34,607 nt of DNA, taken from the NCBI GenBank assembly GCA_905478995.1, contig CAJQKT010000014.1:1-34607 (forward strand), written 5' to 3'. A program made the translations under genes and the position numbers. Shown here piece after piece: positions 5,651-15,017 of this stretch. Under the pieces are notes generated by a model. It saw only the letters and a list, made by a program, of their open reading frames with translations. It did no database searches and was not told where the DNA came from. The number at the start of each line of letters is the position of its first letter. Within the stretch, counting starts at the first letter, position 1. The DNA comes from an uncultured Pseudomonadales bacterium. GTDB lineage: Bacteria; Pseudomonadota; Gammaproteobacteria; Pseudomonadales; UBA7434.

Positions 5651-5864
5651 AGCTACACTCTTGTTATAGACGCGTTGAATAATGCACTTTGCAATTCCTT
5701 CATTTCACTTAATGAAGAATCTCAAGCGTAGCGCCACCAAGAAAGGCGTGGCTGTGTAAAGACTAGACGCTGCAGGTGTTTGAATGCCCTACACCCCCCC
5801 CCGCCGTGTTTTTCTGAGCTTTTAGCAATTAGCCAAAAACGCATTAAGCCGCTACAAAACGGCA

Positions 5865-6365
5865 CTAACAGCCAGTATCAACCATGGTTAGCGTAGGCTT
5901 TGCTCCCGGAGTGTTGACCACCTGAGTATACTCTACATAGCAGTTGGTTCTATCGGGAATTGACCACCTCACCGTAGTGTGGCTTGTTGACGACAAAATA
6001 AAATCTGGCGCATCGACTAGATCATCTATTTCATCACTGCGATTGGGATCTCCACCATCCGGGTAGCCATTCAACATGCGAACATGTTTATTCACTGCAG
6101 GAATATAGACTATCGCACCCCACGCGGCATCCACGCAATCTGGCGTTAATTGACAACCGATATTGACCATCGTTATGGTTGAGCGAAGCGTGCCCATTAA
6201 GTTTTGCAACGTTGCAGAATGGGCATCTGCACTTAAATTGATCAACCTGGGTAGAGCCATTATCGAAAGAATGCCTAGCAACACAATGACGCCCACTAGC
6301 TCTACCAGCGTGAAGCCACGCTGTTGAAAGCCGTCTTGTAGAAATGCCTGTCTCTTCGAGCTCAT
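5865..6365 (-). CDS. Type IV prepilin-like protein, MSHA pilin-like
   Basis: The protein is 166 residues from the ATG at 6365; an upstream TTG at 6407 would add 14 residues but has no ribosome binding site. A 17-residue leader ends in RG, followed by FTLVEL, the prepilin peptidase site, with Glu at +5 of the mature protein. The next 25 hydrophobic residues form the assembly helix. The text after it (ALPRLINLSADAHSATLQNLMGTLRSTITMVN) resembles MshA pilins. The C-terminal region has two Cys pairs (GCQLTPDC, and NCYVEY with a terminal GC), compatible with disulfide loops. No pilus assembly genes are nearby, so it would depend on MSHA, type IV or type II machinery encoded elsewhere. It could instead be a minor pseudopilin. 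Confidence 0.82.
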   Translation of the reverse strand: MSSKRQAFLQDGFQQRGFTLVELVGVIVLLGILSIMALPRLINLSADAHSATLQNLMGTLRSTITMVNIGCQLTPDCVDAAWGAIVYIPAVNKHVRMLNGYPDGGDPNRSDEIDDLVDAPDFILSSTSHTTVRWSIPDRTNCYVEYTQVVNTPGAKPTLTMVDTGC

Positions 6366-9051: not shown

Positions 9052-9831
9052 ATGTCGCGATTCTCACTTATACTCAACTGGCGTACCGTTTTACTCGCGC
9101 TTGCCTCGGTCGGCACTACTGCTGTATGCATCCACTATCAAATTACTGCCGACTTCCCCATGGCCATCATTGTAACGGCCATTGTTTTCCCCATTGCCTT
9201 TTCCATTAACAGCGCCTATGAACGCCGCGAAACAGCGCTAGCACACTATGCCTCGTTAAAAACGGATAGCCGATCTATTTACTATGCATCGCGCGATTGG
9301 TTGGCCGCTGCAAACCCACAATCTTTAGAGCAGCTGCATACACTATTGCGCGCAGTGCTCGAACACACCGTTGCATTACTCACTGACCAACGCACTAATC
9401 TTGAACGCAACGAAGCGCACGTGTATGCCGATTTTTCAGCGCTCAGCCACTTCATTCGCACTGAGCAACGCGATAGAGGCATGGCTGCCACCGAAGTGTC
9501 ACGCGTGAACAACTTTTTTAATTCTATGATGGGCTCTTTTGAAGGGCTTAAACACATTTACCAATACCGCACGCCCAGAACCCTCAAAACATTTAGCAAC
9601 GTGTTTGTTGTTATCATTCCACCCCTGTATGGGCCACACTTTGCTAATTTAGCGCTCGATCACTCGCTGGTCTATGGCTTGCAGTATGCTATGCCCATTC
9701 TTTTTGCCGTATTATTGTCTTCTTTGGCTAACATACAAAGCCAATTAGAAAATCCATTTGATCAGTATGGTGAAGATGATTTGATTTTTAATGTTGATAA
9801 ATTTATTAGTAGCATAAAGACAAACACTTAA
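9052..9831 (+). CDS. Bestrophin-like membrane protein, possible anion channel
   Basis: This 259-residue protein has likely transmembrane helices at about 10-28, 36-54, 182-203 and 208-228, with a long cytoplasmic helical region between the second and third. The segment YRTPRTLKTFSNVF (171-184), the Pro-rich helix entry IIPPLYGP and, above all, ENPFDQYGEDDL (233-244) just after the last helix resemble bestrophins, whose calcium-clasp region carries an ENPF motif followed by acidic residues. Bestrophins form pentameric chloride or anion channels. The match is from memory and partial, so 'uncharacterised membrane protein' is the cautious name. No clear ribosome binding site precedes the ATG. The DUF1456 gene follows 61 bases later and may be co-transcribed. 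Confidence 0.6.
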   Translation: MSRFSLILNWRTVLLALASVGTTAVCIHYQITADFPMAIIVTAIVFPIAFSINSAYERRETALAHYASLKTDSRSIYYASRDWLAAANPQSLEQLHTLLRAVLEHTVALLTDQRTNLERNEAHVYADFSALSHFIRTEQRDRGMAATEVSRVNNFFNSMMGSFEGLKHIYQYRTPRTLKTFSNVFVVIIPPLYGPHFANLALDHSLVYGLQYAMPILFAVLLSSLANIQSQLENPFDQYGEDDLIFNVDKFISSIKTNT

Positions 9832-9892
9832 TGCGTAGAGCCTAGTCCTTTAGGATGCATGCTCAAAAAATTAATTTGGTAGGAATAACAGC

Positions 9893-10351
9893 ATGATTAA
9901 CAATGATGTCTTGCGCCGACTTCGCTTTATTTTGGATCTTAATGATTCAACGATGATCGCTATATTTAGCCAAGCTGATCTTGACGTTACGCGAGAGCAA
10001 GTCAGCGCCTGGCTTAAACGCGATGATGACCCCGATTTTGTAAAGTGCAACGACCGGCAGTTAGCCACTTTTTTAAATGGCTTTATTAATCACCAGCGCG
10101 GTAAAAAAGAGGGCGAGCAACCTGAGCCTGAAAAAACGCTTAGCAACAATATTATTCTAAGGAAATTAAAAATTGCTTTTGATCTTAAGAGCGACGATAT
10201 GATTGAAGTTCTTGCCCTAGCTGACCTCCGCTTGAGTAAGCATGAGCTTAGCGCATTTTTTAGAAAACCGGCACACAAACATTATCGCGAATGCAAAGAT
10301 CAAGTGTTACGTAATTTTCTGCATGGCTTGCAGGCTCAGCATCGTCCGTAA
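9893..10351 (+). CDS. yehS: DUF1456 family protein, YehS-like
   Basis: The 152-residue cytosolic protein is built of two copies of one roughly 65-residue helical unit. Compare NNDVLRRLRFILDLND with NNIILRKLKIAFDLKS, and later FLNGF with FLHGL. The copies lie at about 2-67 and 84-148, joined by a charged linker rich in Lys, Glu and Pro. This arrangement is that of E. coli YehS (DUF1456), whose function is unknown. An AGGAA ribosome binding site lies about 8 bases before the ATG. It sits between the bestrophin-like gene and an SDR gene, all on the plus strand; the gaps are wide enough that separate promoters are possible. Confidence 0.88.
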   Translation: MINNDVLRRLRFILDLNDSTMIAIFSQADLDVTREQVSAWLKRDDDPDFVKCNDRQLATFLNGFINHQRGKKEGEQPEPEKTLSNNIILRKLKIAFDLKSDDMIEVLALADLRLSKHELSAFFRKPAHKHYRECKDQVLRNFLHGLQAQHRP

Positions 10352-10464
10352 AGCGGCATTATTTCATTCAACCACAAGCATTACCTTAATTAAAAAAAGC
10401 GTATTTTTAGCTAACGCGATAGCAGGTAATGGCTCATTCGCCATTCATATAGGAGATTATTAGC

Positions 10465-11235
10465 ATGAGTAACAGTCAGTTTTCCTTACACGGAAAAATA
10501 GCTTTGATTACCGGCGCATCTTCCGGCATCGGTCATACAGTTGCAAAAGGTTTAGCTAAAAATGGTGCAACGGTAATAGTCGCAGCACGTCGTATAGCGA
10601 AGCTCCAGGACTTAGTCGCCTGCATAAAAGCGGCCGGAGGCAGCGCTATCCCCGTAGAAATGGATGTCACTGACCGCAACAGTGTCAATAGTGGTTTTGC
10701 TGAAGCTGAAGAGCAAGTCGGTGTAGTTGACGTTATCGTCAATAACGCAGGTGTCGCCGATTCAAAAGGTTTCCTTAAAGTCGACGAGCGTAGCCGCGAC
10801 TTTGTTATGAACACCAACTTTAATGGTGTTTGGAATGTAGCCCAAGAGGGTGCAAAGCGTCTTGTTGATGCAGAGAAACCCGGCTCCATTATTAATATTT
10901 CATCGGTGCTGGGCATGGGCGTGCAGCCCGGCCAGTCGGCTTACTGTGCATCAAAGGGAGCAGTAATACAGTTAACGCGCTCACTCGCGGTAGATTTAAT
11001 GAGGCACCGGATTCGCGTTAATGCAATTGCCCCAGGGTGGTTTCAGACGGAAATCAATCACGATTATTTTGAGTCGGCGGCGGGCAAAGCTTATGTGCAA
11101 AAAATGCCTGCTAGGCGCCTAGGCAATGTAGAAGAGCTGGTAGGGCCTATCATTATGCTGGCCAGTGATGCCGGCTCGTTTATTAACGGTGCCGTACTTC
11201 CTGTGGACGGCGCTATTAGCGCCGTTATCACATAG
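10465..11235 (+). CDS. Short-chain dehydrogenase/reductase
   Basis: This 256-residue classical SDR oxidises or reduces an alcohol/ketone substrate with NAD(P)H. The nucleotide motif TGASSGIG is at 16-23, and the pair of Arg after the second strand (AARR, 39-42) suggests NADP preference. NNAG is at 92-95. The catalytic triad Ser146, Tyr159 and Lys163 is intact within SSVLGMGVQPGQSAYCASKG. The sequence RVNAIAPGWFQTEI and the C-terminal GAVLPVDGA are typical of the FabG-like branch. An AGGAG ribosome binding site lies 9 bases before the ATG at 10465. The substrate cannot be read from sequence; FabG-type labels would be over-specific because no fatty acid genes are adjacent. Confidence 0.9.
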   Translation: MSNSQFSLHGKIALITGASSGIGHTVAKGLAKNGATVIVAARRIAKLQDLVACIKAAGGSAIPVEMDVTDRNSVNSGFAEAEEQVGVVDVIVNNAGVADSKGFLKVDERSRDFVMNTNFNGVWNVAQEGAKRLVDAEKPGSIINISSVLGMGVQPGQSAYCASKGAVIQLTRSLAVDLMRHRIRVNAIAPGWFQTEINHDYFESAAGKAYVQKMPARRLGNVEELVGPIIMLASDAGSFINGAVLPVDGAISAVIT

Positions 11236-11587
11236 TTTTAATATACCGCTTTGAACGATGACAGAAAATAAGCGTAGCTTTGTTCGAAAAATTTATTCGA
11301 CAATTCATACCGCAGTCTAGCCATTCGTTTAAATGATCCTGCCACCCCAAAACTGCTCAAAAACCAATCAGGCTGCAGAAAAGAATTGGTTAATCTGCCC
11401 TATTTACTGATTTCGTCGAAAGCACTGAGCTACAATTGAAGCTCTAAGTTGTTTGGTTTTTTCCATTTGAACCATGTTGTCTTCTATAGAGTATATAAAG
11501 GGACCTTTGTAAATCGCCGAGTAACATTGTGTATTCGCAGTCATTGAAACCTCGGTATAAGAAAAAATAACTTTTTTGGAGATAGAT
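11236..11587. other. Intergenic region upstream of proteorhodopsin
   Basis: These 352 bases contain no ORF that looks real. They must hold the proteorhodopsin promoter, unless transcription reads through from the SDR gene. A candidate is TTGAAC at 11467-11472 with TATATA at 11492-11497, but the 19-base spacer is long, so this is only a guess. No SDR terminator with a clear T-tract was seen. Confidence 0.4.
11578..11581 (+). promoter_or_regulatory. Ribosome binding site deciding the proteorhodopsin start
   Basis: GGAG lies 6 bases before the ATG at 11588. A TTG at 11576 is in frame but overlaps this site, so the ATG is the likely start. Confidence 0.8.
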
Positions 11588-12283
11588 ATGCAATTTTTAG
11601 CAGACGGAGACTTCGTAGGAGTCTCATTTTGGATTGTGTCGGTGGCGATGATCGCCTCAACGGTGTTCTTTCTTTATGAAGGAATGAACGTTAAGCGAGA
11701 ATGGCGACTGTCCTTGTTGATTGCCGGCTTGGTCACACTGGTCGCAGGCGTTCATTACGCGTATATGCGTGACTATTGGGTGATTAATCAAGCCACCCCT
11801 ATCGTTTATCGCTATATCGATTGGCTGATCACCGTACCCCTACTGATGATCGAATTTTACATCATCTTGAAAGCGGTCGGCGCGTCGGTTAGTAGTGGCT
11901 CATTCATGCGACTCCTTGGCGGCACACTGGTTATGCTGATTTTTGGCTACCTGGGTGAAGCGGGTGTGATGAACAGCACTATCGCATTTTGGCTAGGTAT
12001 GGTTGGTTGGGCCATTATCATCTACGAAATTTTTGCAGGTGAAGCCTCCAAGGCAGCGGCGGCCAACGAAAGTGTCAAGTCAGCATTCAACTACATGAGG
12101 TTAATTGTTCTTGTAGGCTGGGCGATTTACCCGGTTGGCTATGTCATGGGCTACATGATGGGCGGCGTTGACGAAGGCTCACTCAACCTGGTCTATAACC
12201 TTGCCGATTTCGTGAATAAGATTCTCTTTGGTCTTATTATTTGGAATCTAGCTTATAACGATTCTGCCGAAGGCAAACATTAA
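11588..12283 (+). CDS. Proteorhodopsin, green-tuned light-driven proton pump
   Basis: This 231-residue seven-helix retinal protein pumps protons outward across the inner membrane in light. In the numbering from ATG 11588, the proton acceptor Asp78, Thr82 and donor Glu89 form the D-T-E motif in RYIDWLITVPLLMIEF, matching D97, T101 and E108 of green proteorhodopsin. His56 matches H75, and Lys211 in DFVNKILFG is the retinal Schiff-base lysine. The spectral switch position (L105 in the reference) is Leu86, which predicts green absorption. There is no long cleavable signal. The gene ends in a strong terminator and is monocistronic. Genes for beta-carotene cleavage (blh) or carotenoid synthesis are not in this window, so retinal must come from elsewhere in the genome or from outside. 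Confidence 0.97.
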   Translation: MQFLADGDFVGVSFWIVSVAMIASTVFFLYEGMNVKREWRLSLLIAGLVTLVAGVHYAYMRDYWVINQATPIVYRYIDWLITVPLLMIEFYIILKAVGASVSSGSFMRLLGGTLVMLIFGYLGEAGVMNSTIAFWLGMVGWAIIIYEIFAGEASKAAAANESVKSAFNYMRLIVLVGWAIYPVGYVMGYMMGGVDEGSLNLVYNLADFVNKILFGLIIWNLAYNDSAEGKH

Positions 12284-12303: not shown

Positions 12304-12335
12304 AAAAAAAGCCCCGCTGATGCGGGGCTTTTTTT
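12304..12335 (+). terminator. Rho-independent terminator after proteorhodopsin, probably bidirectional
   Basis: A perfect 7-bp stem GCCCCGC/GCGGGGC (12311-12317 and 12322-12328) with loop TGAT is followed by seven T's at 12329-12335. Seven A's at 12304-12310 give a T-tract on the other strand too, so it can also stop leftward transcription from the converging TonB receptor gene, which ends at 12392. Confidence 0.95.
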
Positions 12336-12391: not shown

Positions 12392-14380
12392 TTAAAAAAC
12401 TAATCGAAAACCGATATCAACAGCTCTGCCCGGCGCTGGAGCAACCGACTTAATGAATGAGGTATGCGCACGCTGCTCATCGTTAGTGAGGTTTTTACCT
12501 CGCACAAAGCCAGTTAATGACGTTGTTGCCGATAGTGGTTGCGTAAACTCTGCATAAGCTCCCAGATCATTATATGCATCGGTAGCAAATTCAAAATCAG
12601 CGGTGTCTTGCTGCTGCTTAACGCGTAAATAATCTAGCGAAGCACTAAAGCGCCCCCAACTAGTTTCAAGCCCCAGACCATAACGAGCCGGCGGTATGCG
12701 AGGCAAATTCTGATTACCACTGACATCCAACTCGGCATCAACGAAATCATAAAGCGCTTTTAACTGCACGATATTATCCGCATCTTCAATGAGATTAACG
12801 GCTACTTCCACATCAGCCCCCACAAATGTTGCATCTTGTTGTTGGTAGATAAAAACGGGCAAATCATCTAGCTCACTACCATCGGCCTGTTGATAAATAA
12901 AATTAGAGAATTCAGTTTGGTAGGCAGTAACCGCAGCAGACCAGCGATCATTTTGATACTGTAATGTGGCAGAAACGTTGATGGCTGATTCATTTTTTAA
13001 TGTGACATCGCCTATCTCATAAGTGTTGGTCGTTAAATGCGGCCCATCAGAATAGAGCTCTTCTGCCACTGGTGCGCGCGAAGAGTAGTCAACAATAGCA
13101 TTGAGCTGCCAATTAGCATCGAGCGGTATAACAGCACCCAGCGACCCGCTCACGTTTGAAAAGTCTTTACTCACAGCGGCGCTAGGGCTATGCCTTACCT
13201 CACCAACCCGCAGCCCTGCCTCAACGTTCACAGTATTAATACTGCGCTCGCCCAACCAAAAAATGCCGCTTTCTGCCGTATCAACTGGCTGGATAAATGC
13301 CTCTTCACCCAACGCAGAAAAGTCTCGTTGGCTGTGCTGCAAACCTAGCGCATGTGTCCATTCGCCAGTTTCAACAATGAACTCGGCGCGAGCTTCCCAC
13401 GCCTTATTAGAAAATCGTGTAGCCACCTCGCCATCGGGCTCAATTTCTTGATGCTCATAATCATTCACGCCAAGCCTGAGGTTAATACTGCGAATCACAT
13501 CCGATATTTTGTCCAGACCCAACTCAAAATCGGTTCGCGTTTGCGCCAACTCTAAAGTGGGTGTTGCACCACCCTCAGCATGCCCCGGCAAACCATAATC
13601 AGCATCGGTATCACTCACAGAGATACCTACAAAGCCCCAGTCTTTGATGTAGCTTGCACCGATTGCTGCCGACTCAAAGGTAAACGCACTACCCAGCAAC
13701 GTACCGCTTATATGCTCCTCACCAGGCTCTAATGCACGCAATTCGGCTGACTCGGCGAAGCCCGGAATGTCGTAATTATTCGCGTCTTTACGCGTGCCAT
13801 CAACATGCCAGGCAACATTGCCTTCGCTGCCGTTGAGTTTTAGCGAGGTTGTATTGCCATCTGAGTTCAAATTATGGCGTGTTTCAAAACCACCCGACAA
13901 GGGCTTATCAGATAAATAATGAGGAATGCGGCCGGTGTGAATATCTACCACCCCGCCAATGGCGCCCGAACCATAGAGTAAAATGCCCGCGCCCTTGAGC
14001 ACTTCAATACGCTCAGCAATAAAAGGCTCAACACTCACCGCATGATCACCACTAGTGACTGAAACATCTAGTGTATCGATACGATCTTCCATTATTTTTA
14101 CCCGAGGCCCGCCAAGCCCATGAATAACGGGCCGCCCTACGGCACTGCCAAACGACGCAGAATGGATGCCCGGTTGCTTCGATAAAGTGGTGCCTATATT
14201 GGTCGACAGCTTGCGCTCTAATTCTGCACCTTCTAAAACATCAACGGCTTGCGACAAACCTTCACCTGATAACGGGTGGGCCACAACCATGACATCTTCA
14301 ATCATTCTTTCAGCTATAGCCGTGCCAGTAATACTGAATAGGCAGGCAGCCCAAAAAGCTCTCATTAATAAAATGTACAT
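12392..14380 (-). CDS. TonB-dependent outer-membrane receptor, ZnuD-like (putative zinc uptake)
   Basis: The 662-residue receptor has a signal peptide cleaved near residue 23 (TAIAE), a TonB-box-like segment DVMVVA at 29-34, a plug at about 40-155 and a beta-barrel ending in FRLVF. Plug blocks GRPVIHGLGGPRVKIMEDRI, SGDHAVSVEPF, ERIEVLKGAGILLYGSGAIGGVV and the barrel segment YGLPGH are those I associate with the ZnuD zinc receptor family. The His-rich loop that follows YGLPGH in Neisseria ZnuD is not seen here: the next residues are AEGGATPTLE. The ATG at 14380 has AGGAG six bases upstream. The preceding small His/Cys-rich gene supports a metal role. Copper or another metal, or a siderophore, remains possible. 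Confidence 0.85.
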   Translation of the reverse strand: MYILLMRAFWAACLFSITGTAIAERMIEDVMVVAHPLSGEGLSQAVDVLEGAELERKLSTNIGTTLSKQPGIHSASFGSAVGRPVIHGLGGPRVKIMEDRIDTLDVSVTSGDHAVSVEPFIAERIEVLKGAGILLYGSGAIGGVVDIHTGRIPHYLSDKPLSGGFETRHNLNSDGNTTSLKLNGSEGNVAWHVDGTRKDANNYDIPGFAESAELRALEPGEEHISGTLLGSAFTFESAAIGASYIKDWGFVGISVSDTDADYGLPGHAEGGATPTLELAQTRTDFELGLDKISDVIRSINLRLGVNDYEHQEIEPDGEVATRFSNKAWEARAEFIVETGEWTHALGLQHSQRDFSALGEEAFIQPVDTAESGIFWLGERSINTVNVEAGLRVGEVRHSPSAAVSKDFSNVSGSLGAVIPLDANWQLNAIVDYSSRAPVAEELYSDGPHLTTNTYEIGDVTLKNESAINVSATLQYQNDRWSAAVTAYQTEFSNFIYQQADGSELDDLPVFIYQQQDATFVGADVEVAVNLIEDADNIVQLKALYDFVDAELDVSGNQNLPRIPPARYGLGLETSWGRFSASLDYLRVKQQQDTADFEFATDAYNDLGAYAEFTQPLSATTSLTGFVRGKNLTNDEQRAHTSFIKSVAPAPGRAVDIGFRLVF

Positions 14381-14387
14381 AGATTTC

Positions 14388-14444
14388 TCCTAACGAATGG
14401 ATTTTTTGCCGGCGTTGGCAAACGTAGCTATAAATTCGTTAGGA
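14388..14444 (-). promoter_or_regulatory. Intercistronic hairpin holding the upstream stop codon and the receptor's ribosome binding site
   Basis: On the minus strand, TCCTAACGAAT (14444-14434) and ATTCGTTAGGA (14398-14388) are perfectly complementary over 11 bp, with a 35-base loop. The loop contains a second perfect stem, TTTGCC/GGCAAA (14422-14417 with 14410-14405). The TAA in the first arm is the stop codon of the His-rich gene. AGGA in the second arm belongs to AGGAG, the ribosome binding site of the ZnuD-like gene. Folded RNA would hide that site until a ribosome finishing the first gene opens the stem, so translational coupling is the natural reading. Confidence 0.72.
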
Positions 14445-14753
14445 TTGCGGCGGAGCGCGCGTTAGGTAACATTGAGCGGAGGTTGCTTGCACCCGGCGTT
14501 GTTGCGGCGCAGGATAAACATGATGATGAATGCCTGCACGAGAGGCAATAGAGAACTGATTGGCAGGCGGCGCCTGATGTTGTGCATGAATGCAAACGAT
14601 ACACGCTGCATCGGCATGGCTATCGATATCAATGTGTAAATGATTAGATGCCAGTACCTGCCCGCTGATGAAAAAAAACATCACGGCCAACAGGCTCAGG
14701 CGACACAACTTGCTGCCTAATGGTTTTTGCATAATTTGCATCAAATGAAACAC
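14439..14753 (-). CDS. Small exported His/Cys-rich protein, putative periplasmic zinc chaperone
   Basis: This 104-residue protein has a signal peptide (hydrophobic stretch LSLLAVMFFFISGQVLA, cleavage about residue 36). The mature part is short and carries metal-ligand-like residues: HLHIDIDSH, then CIVC, IH, QH, HHH and one more Cys near the end. It resembles small proteins annotated as zinc chaperones next to ZnuD-like receptors or Zn ABC transporters; this is recalled, not searched. The start taken is GTG at 14753, with GAGG five bases upstream; ATGs at 14741 and 14732 lack a good site. Its stop codon lies in the hairpin leading into the receptor gene, 58 bases before the receptor start, which supports a shared operon. 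Confidence 0.72.
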   Translation of the reverse strand: MFHLMQIMQKPLGSKLCRLSLLAVMFFFISGQVLASNHLHIDIDSHADAACIVCIHAQHQAPPANQFSIASRAGIHHHVYPAPQQRRVQATSAQCYLTRAPPQS

Positions 14754-14764
14754 TCAGGCCTCAA

Positions 14765-14923
14765 TTAGCTTACCCTATGTACCCGGCGGCACACAGCAAA
14801 CACTTTTTTGGTAGCTTCGTCTACTTCTTCGGGTGTTATTAGCACCGTCGTTTTGTAGCTCACCGAACCGGTGGCACTCACCGCAAGCCACAACGCGCGG
14901 AGTATAAACCAAGTCTCAACCAT
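14765..14923 (-). CDS. Possible small protein of 52 residues leading the metal-uptake operon
   Basis: An open frame runs from ATG 14923 to TAA 14765, ending 11 bases before the GTG of the His-rich gene. The product begins with a hydrophobic stretch (WFILRALWLAVSA), followed by a Ser/Thr-rich part and an amphipathic helix-like end (TPEEVDEATKKVFAVCRRVHRV). Composition and operon-like spacing look genuine, but the ATG has no recognisable ribosome binding site and an in-frame TAG stands immediately before it. I do not recognise the family. It could be an unrecognised small membrane or exported protein, a leader peptide, or chance. Confidence 0.4.
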   Translation of the reverse strand: MVETWFILRALWLAVSATGSVSYKTTVLITPEEVDEATKKVFAVCRRVHRVS

Positions 14924-14926
14924 CTA

Positions 14927-14941
14927 GTTAATATAAGTAAC
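14927..14941. promoter_or_regulatory. Imperfect palindrome in front of the metal-uptake genes
   Basis: GTTAATATAAGTAAC has perfect GTTA/TAAC outer arms around an AT-rich 7-base centre. Zur boxes of gammaproteobacteria are AT-rich palindromes with GTTA/TAAC arms, but their spacing is tighter, so this is only a weak candidate operator. It lies 3 bases upstream of the 52-residue ORF. Confidence 0.22.
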
Positions 14942-15017
14942 AACCAAAAGAACTAAAATTGACAGATGAAGGGCTGGCGCCATCAAATGTAAGACCTCAG
15001 CGGATAAAACTTCAGCC

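Follow-up and report, generated by a model that had tools for sequence, protein, structure and literature searches.

Our analysis revealed a hairpin that masks the Shine-Dalgarno (SD) sequence of a ZnuD-like receptor gene in an uncultured Pseudomonadales bacterium, an upstream leader ending in RAPP, a near-constant spacing between sensor and stall site, the position of the anti-SD bases relative to that site, and an association of such leaders with zinc-uptake genes. We consider it quite probable that leader and hairpin together form a translational switch in which the RAPP end of the leader open reading frame (ORF) acts as an arrest sequence, with zinc as the most likely ligand. We infer the arrest itself, zinc as its ligand, the sign of the response and the export of the leader. 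The leader would combine an export-signal-like start, a metal site of the form HxH...CxxC and the RAPP arrest end. Under shortage of the metal, most likely zinc, a ribosome would stall with the two RAPP prolines in its P and A sites and would cover the anti-SD, which would leave the receptor SD exposed for synthesis of the ZnuD-like receptor. Zinc binding to the nascent chain, at a site about 44 residues from the stall point, would relieve the arrest, perhaps by pulling force; the ribosome would then finish and depart, the hairpin would close, and receptor synthesis would drop to the low level of ordinary coupling. Coordinates are collected in Table 1 and refer to the window, that is the whole stretch of 34,607 nucleotides that was analysed.

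Table 1. Features of the leader-receptor locus, in window coordinates.
Feature	Position	Strand	Basis
Perfect inverted repeat of 14 bp with runs of A and T, likely to terminate the two-gene unit	12304-12335		repeat scan
ZnuD-like TonB-dependent outer-membrane receptor, 662 aa	12392-14380	minus	Pfam plug and barrel, NCBIfam, solved relative
Receptor SD AGGAG, AGGA part inside the 3′ arm	14387-14391	minus	sequence
3′ arm of the stem, carries AGGA of the receptor SD	14388-14398	minus	repeat scan, fold
Nested inner hairpin in the loop, 6-bp stem 14405-14410 / 14417-14422	14405-14422	minus	predicted fold
5′ arm (anti-SD arm), contains TAA stop 14439-14441	14434-14444	minus	repeat scan, fold
Leader ORF, 104 codons, GTG start, small His/Cys-rich protein ending RAPPQS	14439-14753	minus	ORF list, translation, relatives
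RAPP codons; a stall is predicted here, with the P-site on the first Pro (14451-14453) and the A-site on the second (14448-14450)	14448-14459	minus	sequence, CruR toeprint placement
Predicted metal-binding motif HxH...CxxC, CxxC ending 44 residues before R of RAPP	14592-14642	minus	sequence, alignment A1
Hydrophobic signal-peptide-like stretch	14646-14711	minus	by eye, translation, alignment A1

The initial annotation had described two perfectly complementary 11-bp arms, one holding the TAA stop of the small His-rich gene and the other four of the five AGGAG bases, with the receptor ATG (14378-14380) six bases after AGGAG, and all of this was borne out by the sequence and by an inverted-repeat scan of the window (minimum repeat length 11 nt, no more than 80 nt between copies). 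The arms are 100% complementary over 11 nt, enclose 35 nt and span 57 bp, and they are one of the three perfect repeats among the 11 that the scan listed across the whole window. Leader and receptor genes both lie on the minus strand with a gap of 58 nt between them. A minus-strand stretch of 61 nt reached a predicted folding energy of -19.3 kcal/mol (z = -4.49; none of 200 shuffles reached it), and the 6-bp stem that had been reported as nested in the loop is present in the predicted fold; a longer stretch of 111 nt folded as the plus strand was unremarkable (z = -0.39). No Rfam family matched the window at the gathering threshold and the three weak matches around the locus were far below their gathering scores, so that no known riboswitch was found.

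The translated leader contains the motifs HLH and CIVC and the C-terminal RAPPQS. Judged from its sequence, the RAPP at the leader end is a known ribosome-arrest motif, which the initial annotation had missed, and we propose that the leader is a metal-sensing arrest peptide. The placement of P- and A-sites was borrowed from the toeprint of the copper leader CruR (excerpts of PMC12992588). Against the Pfam family DUF2946 (PF11162) the leader scored 8.4 bits, below the cut-off of 23.7; weak matches (E up to 10) came from 12 of 27 leaders of relatives, the strongest at E 0.0027, and a DUF2946 search of the own genome returned no match at E <= 0.001. The 264 nt upstream of the leader (14754-15017) contained neither an Rfam match at the gathering score nor, judged by consensus, a sigma-70-like promoter, and most of this region, up to 14915, folded no better than shuffles.

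Relatives were gathered by receptor similarity from the genus, the order and a genome collection. Removal of duplicates (L001, L073, L032, L013, L004, L050, L061) left 42 ZnuD-like loci; L048, whose contig begins inside the receptor, was excluded, and the close relatives L003, L006, L060, L066, L068 and L072 were also removed for the pairing, arm-swap and stall-versus-stop analyses. An upstream ORF ending in RxPP was found at 41 of the 42 loci (33 RAPP, 7 RGPP, 1 RDPP), with the motif beginning 5-13 residues before the leader C-terminus, and L057 was the sole locus that had no such leader. Six examined receptor paralogues of ~30% identity had no RxPP leader ORF upstream. The distance from CxxC to RxPP was 42-45 residues in 35 of the 41 leaders, and the remaining six had a single Cys 44-47 residues before RxPP. 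When 27 of the 41 leaders were aligned (alignment A1), the invariant columns were only one Cys and the R, P and P of RxPP, and the His pair of HxH was nearly invariant. A leader profile matched 70 of 370 sampled genomes of the class and 115 of 381 of the order.

The SD-masking hairpin is real and recurs in many of these relatives. Each locus was folded from the predicted P-site codon to just beyond the receptor start, and pairing was scored when at least three SD bases paired with nucleotides 0-16 after the P-site; expected counts were obtained by shuffling the segment between the Pro codons and the SD, both of which were kept. Start codons in relatives and in ordinary gene pairs were chosen by SD score and some may be wrong, and with this proviso 26 of 35 non-redundant loci paired in the first sample (9.2 expected), 17 of 28 in the second (6.6 expected; 16 of 27 without L082, a duplicate of L033 in the first set) and 24 of 36 in the third (7.9 expected), leaving 9, 11 and 12 loci that did not. 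By the same measure only 3 of 37 pairs of ordinary adjacent genes, taken with rough gene calls from the window and the fetched stretches, were paired. The second sample was selected by leader profile and not by receptor (29 loci, of which 28 were usable and one had no downstream gene), and the third comprised the profile matches of the class and order searches ranked below the top 30 (4 of 40 unusable, three for lack of a motif-matching leader and one for lack of a downstream gene). The samples are partly dependent, as L151 is 87% identical to L067, and similarity of 87-94% exists within the groups L107, L111 and L166; L155 and L162; and L173 and L177. In the order-level half of the third sample 19 of 20 loci paired (5.6 expected) and in the class-level half 5 of 16 (2.3 expected), the latter weak result meaning either that the geometry is weak in distant members or that start codons were picked wrongly there. 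At L045, L059 and L067 the SD was unpaired with the stall segment, and at L038 and L040 pairing lay further downstream.

Covariation of the two arms, which had been named as a check on the hairpin, gave a mostly positive answer. On average, the arms of one locus paired more strongly with each other than arms exchanged between loci did (mean -12.58 vs -8.47 kcal/mol over 35 loci, 0 of 20,000 permutations as good), but the own arm was the single best partner of 35 in only 8 loci. Column by column the signal was modest: in a fixed register on 12 loci 72.7% of cells were paired compared to 69.1% in letter shuffles (29 of 500 as high), and the covariation score was reached by 65 of 500 letter shuffles; sliding the register lowered pairing to 27-45%. 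Compared to shuffled 5′ segments, duplex energy was individually significant (p < 0.05) in 13 of 31 short-gap loci, which as a group, near-identical loci included, gave a Fisher p of about 9e-10, and the 10 long-gap loci as a group were not significant (p = 0.20). Paired changes included, in three loci, a TGA in place of the TAA stop together with C for U in the SD arm, and a replacement of G-C by A-U three bases on. An inner hairpin is general too: in 24 of 27 short-gap loci the loop segment was more stable than its shuffles (z < -1).

The receptor scored 359.8 bits against the NCBIfam ZnuD model NF038289, the best among the 25 families listed yet short of the cut-off of 950 bits, and among solved structures ZnuD is the closest to it (4rdr, E 4.1e-54); we therefore refer to it as ZnuD-like. 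Convergent with the receptor gene lies a bacteriorhodopsin-family gene, probably a proteorhodopsin (11576-12283), and the terminator-like repeat sits between the two. Downstream of the leaders of the third sample we found a ZnuD-like receptor in 22 of 36 cases, an outer-membrane barrel in 11 and no reference match in three. Pfam scans of two downstream operons detected ZnuA and ABC-3 after the barrel at L112, which L113 and L114 resemble by eye, and ABC and FtsX genes after ZrgA at L115. The barrel, located between the RAPP leader and ZnuA-like and ABC-3-like genes (L112 592-1785, L113 599-1921, L114 3148-4398), is possibly an uncharacterised zinc channel; it was BBP2-like, below cut-off, in the two scanned examples L085 and L097, and several barrels end in GAHGAHxF. 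The RAPP leader of L163 is followed by an ORF of 427 aa, lipoprotein-like and very rich in His and Glu, that matched none of the reference proteins used.

Zur-box-like sites were sought with a pattern extended around the core GTTA-N5-TAAC, allowing up to 4 mismatches in 18. Such sites occurred upstream of 7 of the 42 loci vs 0.10 expected (one of the seven being the leaderless L057), at 1 of 29 loci in the second sample (L104) and, in a count made without shuffle control, at 4 of 36 in the third (L153, L168, L169 and L181, the last one exact). The site upstream of L057 is an exact GTTA-N5-TAAC, which looks like an exchange of one control for the other. This core is the Zur consensus given in excerpts of PMC4176598. 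No Zur box was detected upstream of the leader in the window or in own-genus loci. In the own genome the core palindrome TGTTATANTATAACA has no match with one mismatch or fewer, and sites with at most three mismatches numbered 49 vs 132 for the reversed control pattern. On another contig of this genome (C4, locus L081) a Zur-like FUR-family gene (5774-6241) is found near a second ZnuD-like receptor (about 9807-11948), which is about 33% identical and has no RAPP leader. This second receptor follows an ORF that looks beta-helix-like by eye.

Parts of the proposed device are already known. CruR, encoded by Bordetella pertussis bp2923 upstream of bfrG and belonging to the DUF2946 family, is described in excerpts of PMC9426467 as a copper-responsive leader acting through Rho-dependent termination, with a gap of 162 bp to the next gene and 45 residues between CxxC and RAPP; copper control was kept when this spacing was altered by one or two residues and was strongly reduced by five extra. 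Arrest at RAPP was demonstrated for CruR in vitro (excerpts of PMC12992588). The window locus shares with CruR a small predicted-exported leader ahead of a TonB-dependent transporter, the CxxC and the C-terminal RAPP (as far as described in excerpts of PMC9426467), but it differs in its gap of 58 nt, in the hairpin that masks the SD, in the receptor, which is ZnuD-like, and in the leader score, which falls below the DUF2946 cut-off. In CutF of Rhodobacter capsulatus (cutFOG) copper raises oxidase production, and the protein has a CxxxC and a proline-rich tail which contained no strong stalling sequence in a LepB-SecM-type test; like the locus described here, the system appears in excerpts of PMC9973294 as an exported nascent metal sensor with a stem-loop hiding the SD of the next gene, whereas the window leader has CxxC and RAPP in place of CxxxC and the proline-rich C-terminus. 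A C-terminal arrest sequence that opens a stem-loop over the SD of the next gene has likewise been described for SecM-SecA and tested for a SecDF2 leader (excerpts of PMC10987492), but both monitor protein export and not metal. CutF already pairs a nascent copper sensor with an SD-masking stem-loop, and a genome survey of RAPP/RGPP-containing ORFs lists TonB-dependent receptors and copper-related genes downstream of them (excerpts of PMC12992588). Within the main texts, the words hairpin, Shine and zinc have no occurrence in the CruR paper (PMC9426467), zinc has none in the CutF paper (PMC9973294), and zinc, stem-loop, hairpin, secondary structure and Shine-Dalgarno have none in the RAPP survey (PMC12992588). 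Among the open-licence PMC papers listed, judged by titles and the starts of abstracts, none describes a zinc-responsive arrest leader, and we found no paper there combining zinc uptake with an arrest peptide. What appears to be new, in our best reading of the comparison, is that a sensor and arrest of the CruR type are joined to SD gating of the SecM type in a zinc-uptake setting.

The anti-SD follows the stall site and not the stop codon. Across the 54 loci with pairing in reach its centre lay 10.3 nt after the P-site (standard deviation 5.7 nt), with a spread of 5.7 nt around the P-site vs 8.2 nt around the stop and a Spearman correlation with stop position of 0.04, a result that is somewhat favoured by the search window of 0-28 nt, which was itself set from the P-site. 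At the window locus the partners of AGGA stand 9-12 nt beyond the first nucleotide of the P-site, inside the ribosome footprint of 15-16 nt, and in the predicted fold this would place the anti-SD of the masking stem-loop under the stalled ribosome, as in SecM-type gating. The initial annotation had read the layout as one that would make receptor synthesis depend on translation of the small metal-binding protein. Part of that reading is supported, namely the sequestered SD, an opening that would need a ribosome on the small gene, and genes that look like a metal-uptake pair, but the stop codon as the functional element gives way to the RAPP stall site. Plain termination-dependent coupling, where any ribosome finishing the small gene would melt the hairpin and no stall is programmed, agrees with the position of the stop in the 5′ arm of the window locus, as a terminating ribosome would cover the same arm. 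It leaves unexplained, however, why RxPP is kept at nearly all loci when the leader protein shows little conservation elsewhere and why the distance between CxxC and RxPP is near-constant, and 15 of the 54 loci have a stop 20 nt or more beyond the P-site, the anti-SD being centred upstream of the stop in every one of them; we regard it as quite unlikely. Since a terminating ribosome would also open the stem briefly, such coupling is probably the basal state of the device. Rho-dependent termination between the two genes with the hairpin being secondary, as reported for CruR with the same leader architecture (excerpts of PMC9426467), is unlikely in our view, given the much shorter gap here (58 nt vs 162 bp in cruR-bfrG) and the recurrence of the SD-masking geometry in relatives. 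It is extremely improbable that the inverted repeat is a DNA element, such as an integron attC-like site, a mobile repeat or an operator, and not an RNA switch. The attC simple site has the consensus ends RYYYAAC / GTTRRRY, which the ends of the repeat resemble in outline over a span of 57 bp, but the terminal bases TCCTAAC / GTTAGGA do not fit this consensus, the own genome has a single match to the repeat at E <= 0.001, and arm sequence and spacing change between relatives while SD pairing persists. The varying arm spacing likewise led us to reject an operator for a DNA-binding protein. An intrinsic terminator in the loop is not general; among the output listed, L005 has, by eye, a run of U behind its inner stem.

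The remaining alternative accepts the arrest-gated switch and differs in its ligand alone, which would be copper, as in CruR, or some other metal. We consider it rather unlikely, although the spacing of CxxC and RAPP is as in the copper leader and neither the window nor the own-genus loci have a Zur box, and although the separate ZnuD-like receptor near the Zur-like gene, which is leaderless, means that the ligand in the own genome could be another metal. On the other side, the receptor is closest to ZnuD among solved structures, and related leaders precede ZnuD-like, ZrgA and ZnuA/ABC-3 genes, some of them with Zur-box-like sites, which makes zinc the likely ligand. As far as sequence comparison can indicate, zinc is thus likely for the leader family and less certain for the own-genome copy. 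For the arrest-gated zinc switch we consider it moderately probable that the class contains widespread nascent-chain zinc sensors, exported leader peptides with HxH...CxxC at a near-constant distance from RAPP and the anti-SD under the stalled ribosome, at the head of at least three kinds of zinc-uptake operons (ZnuD-like receptors; outer-membrane barrel with ZnuA and ABC-3; ZrgA with ABC), some beside Zur and some, this genus among them, with no detectable Zur box.

Bacterial zinc homeostasis is described mainly via transcription factors such as Zur. The leader family would add a translational and possibly periplasm-facing zinc sensor, and it would unite metal sensing of the CruR type with SD gating of the SecM type in one compact device. 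Its geometry, with the sensor about 44 residues before the stall and the anti-SD mostly 0-16 nt after the P-site, makes the device directly testable in vitro. The cell can probably switch on the uptake of metal, likely zinc, via translation itself.
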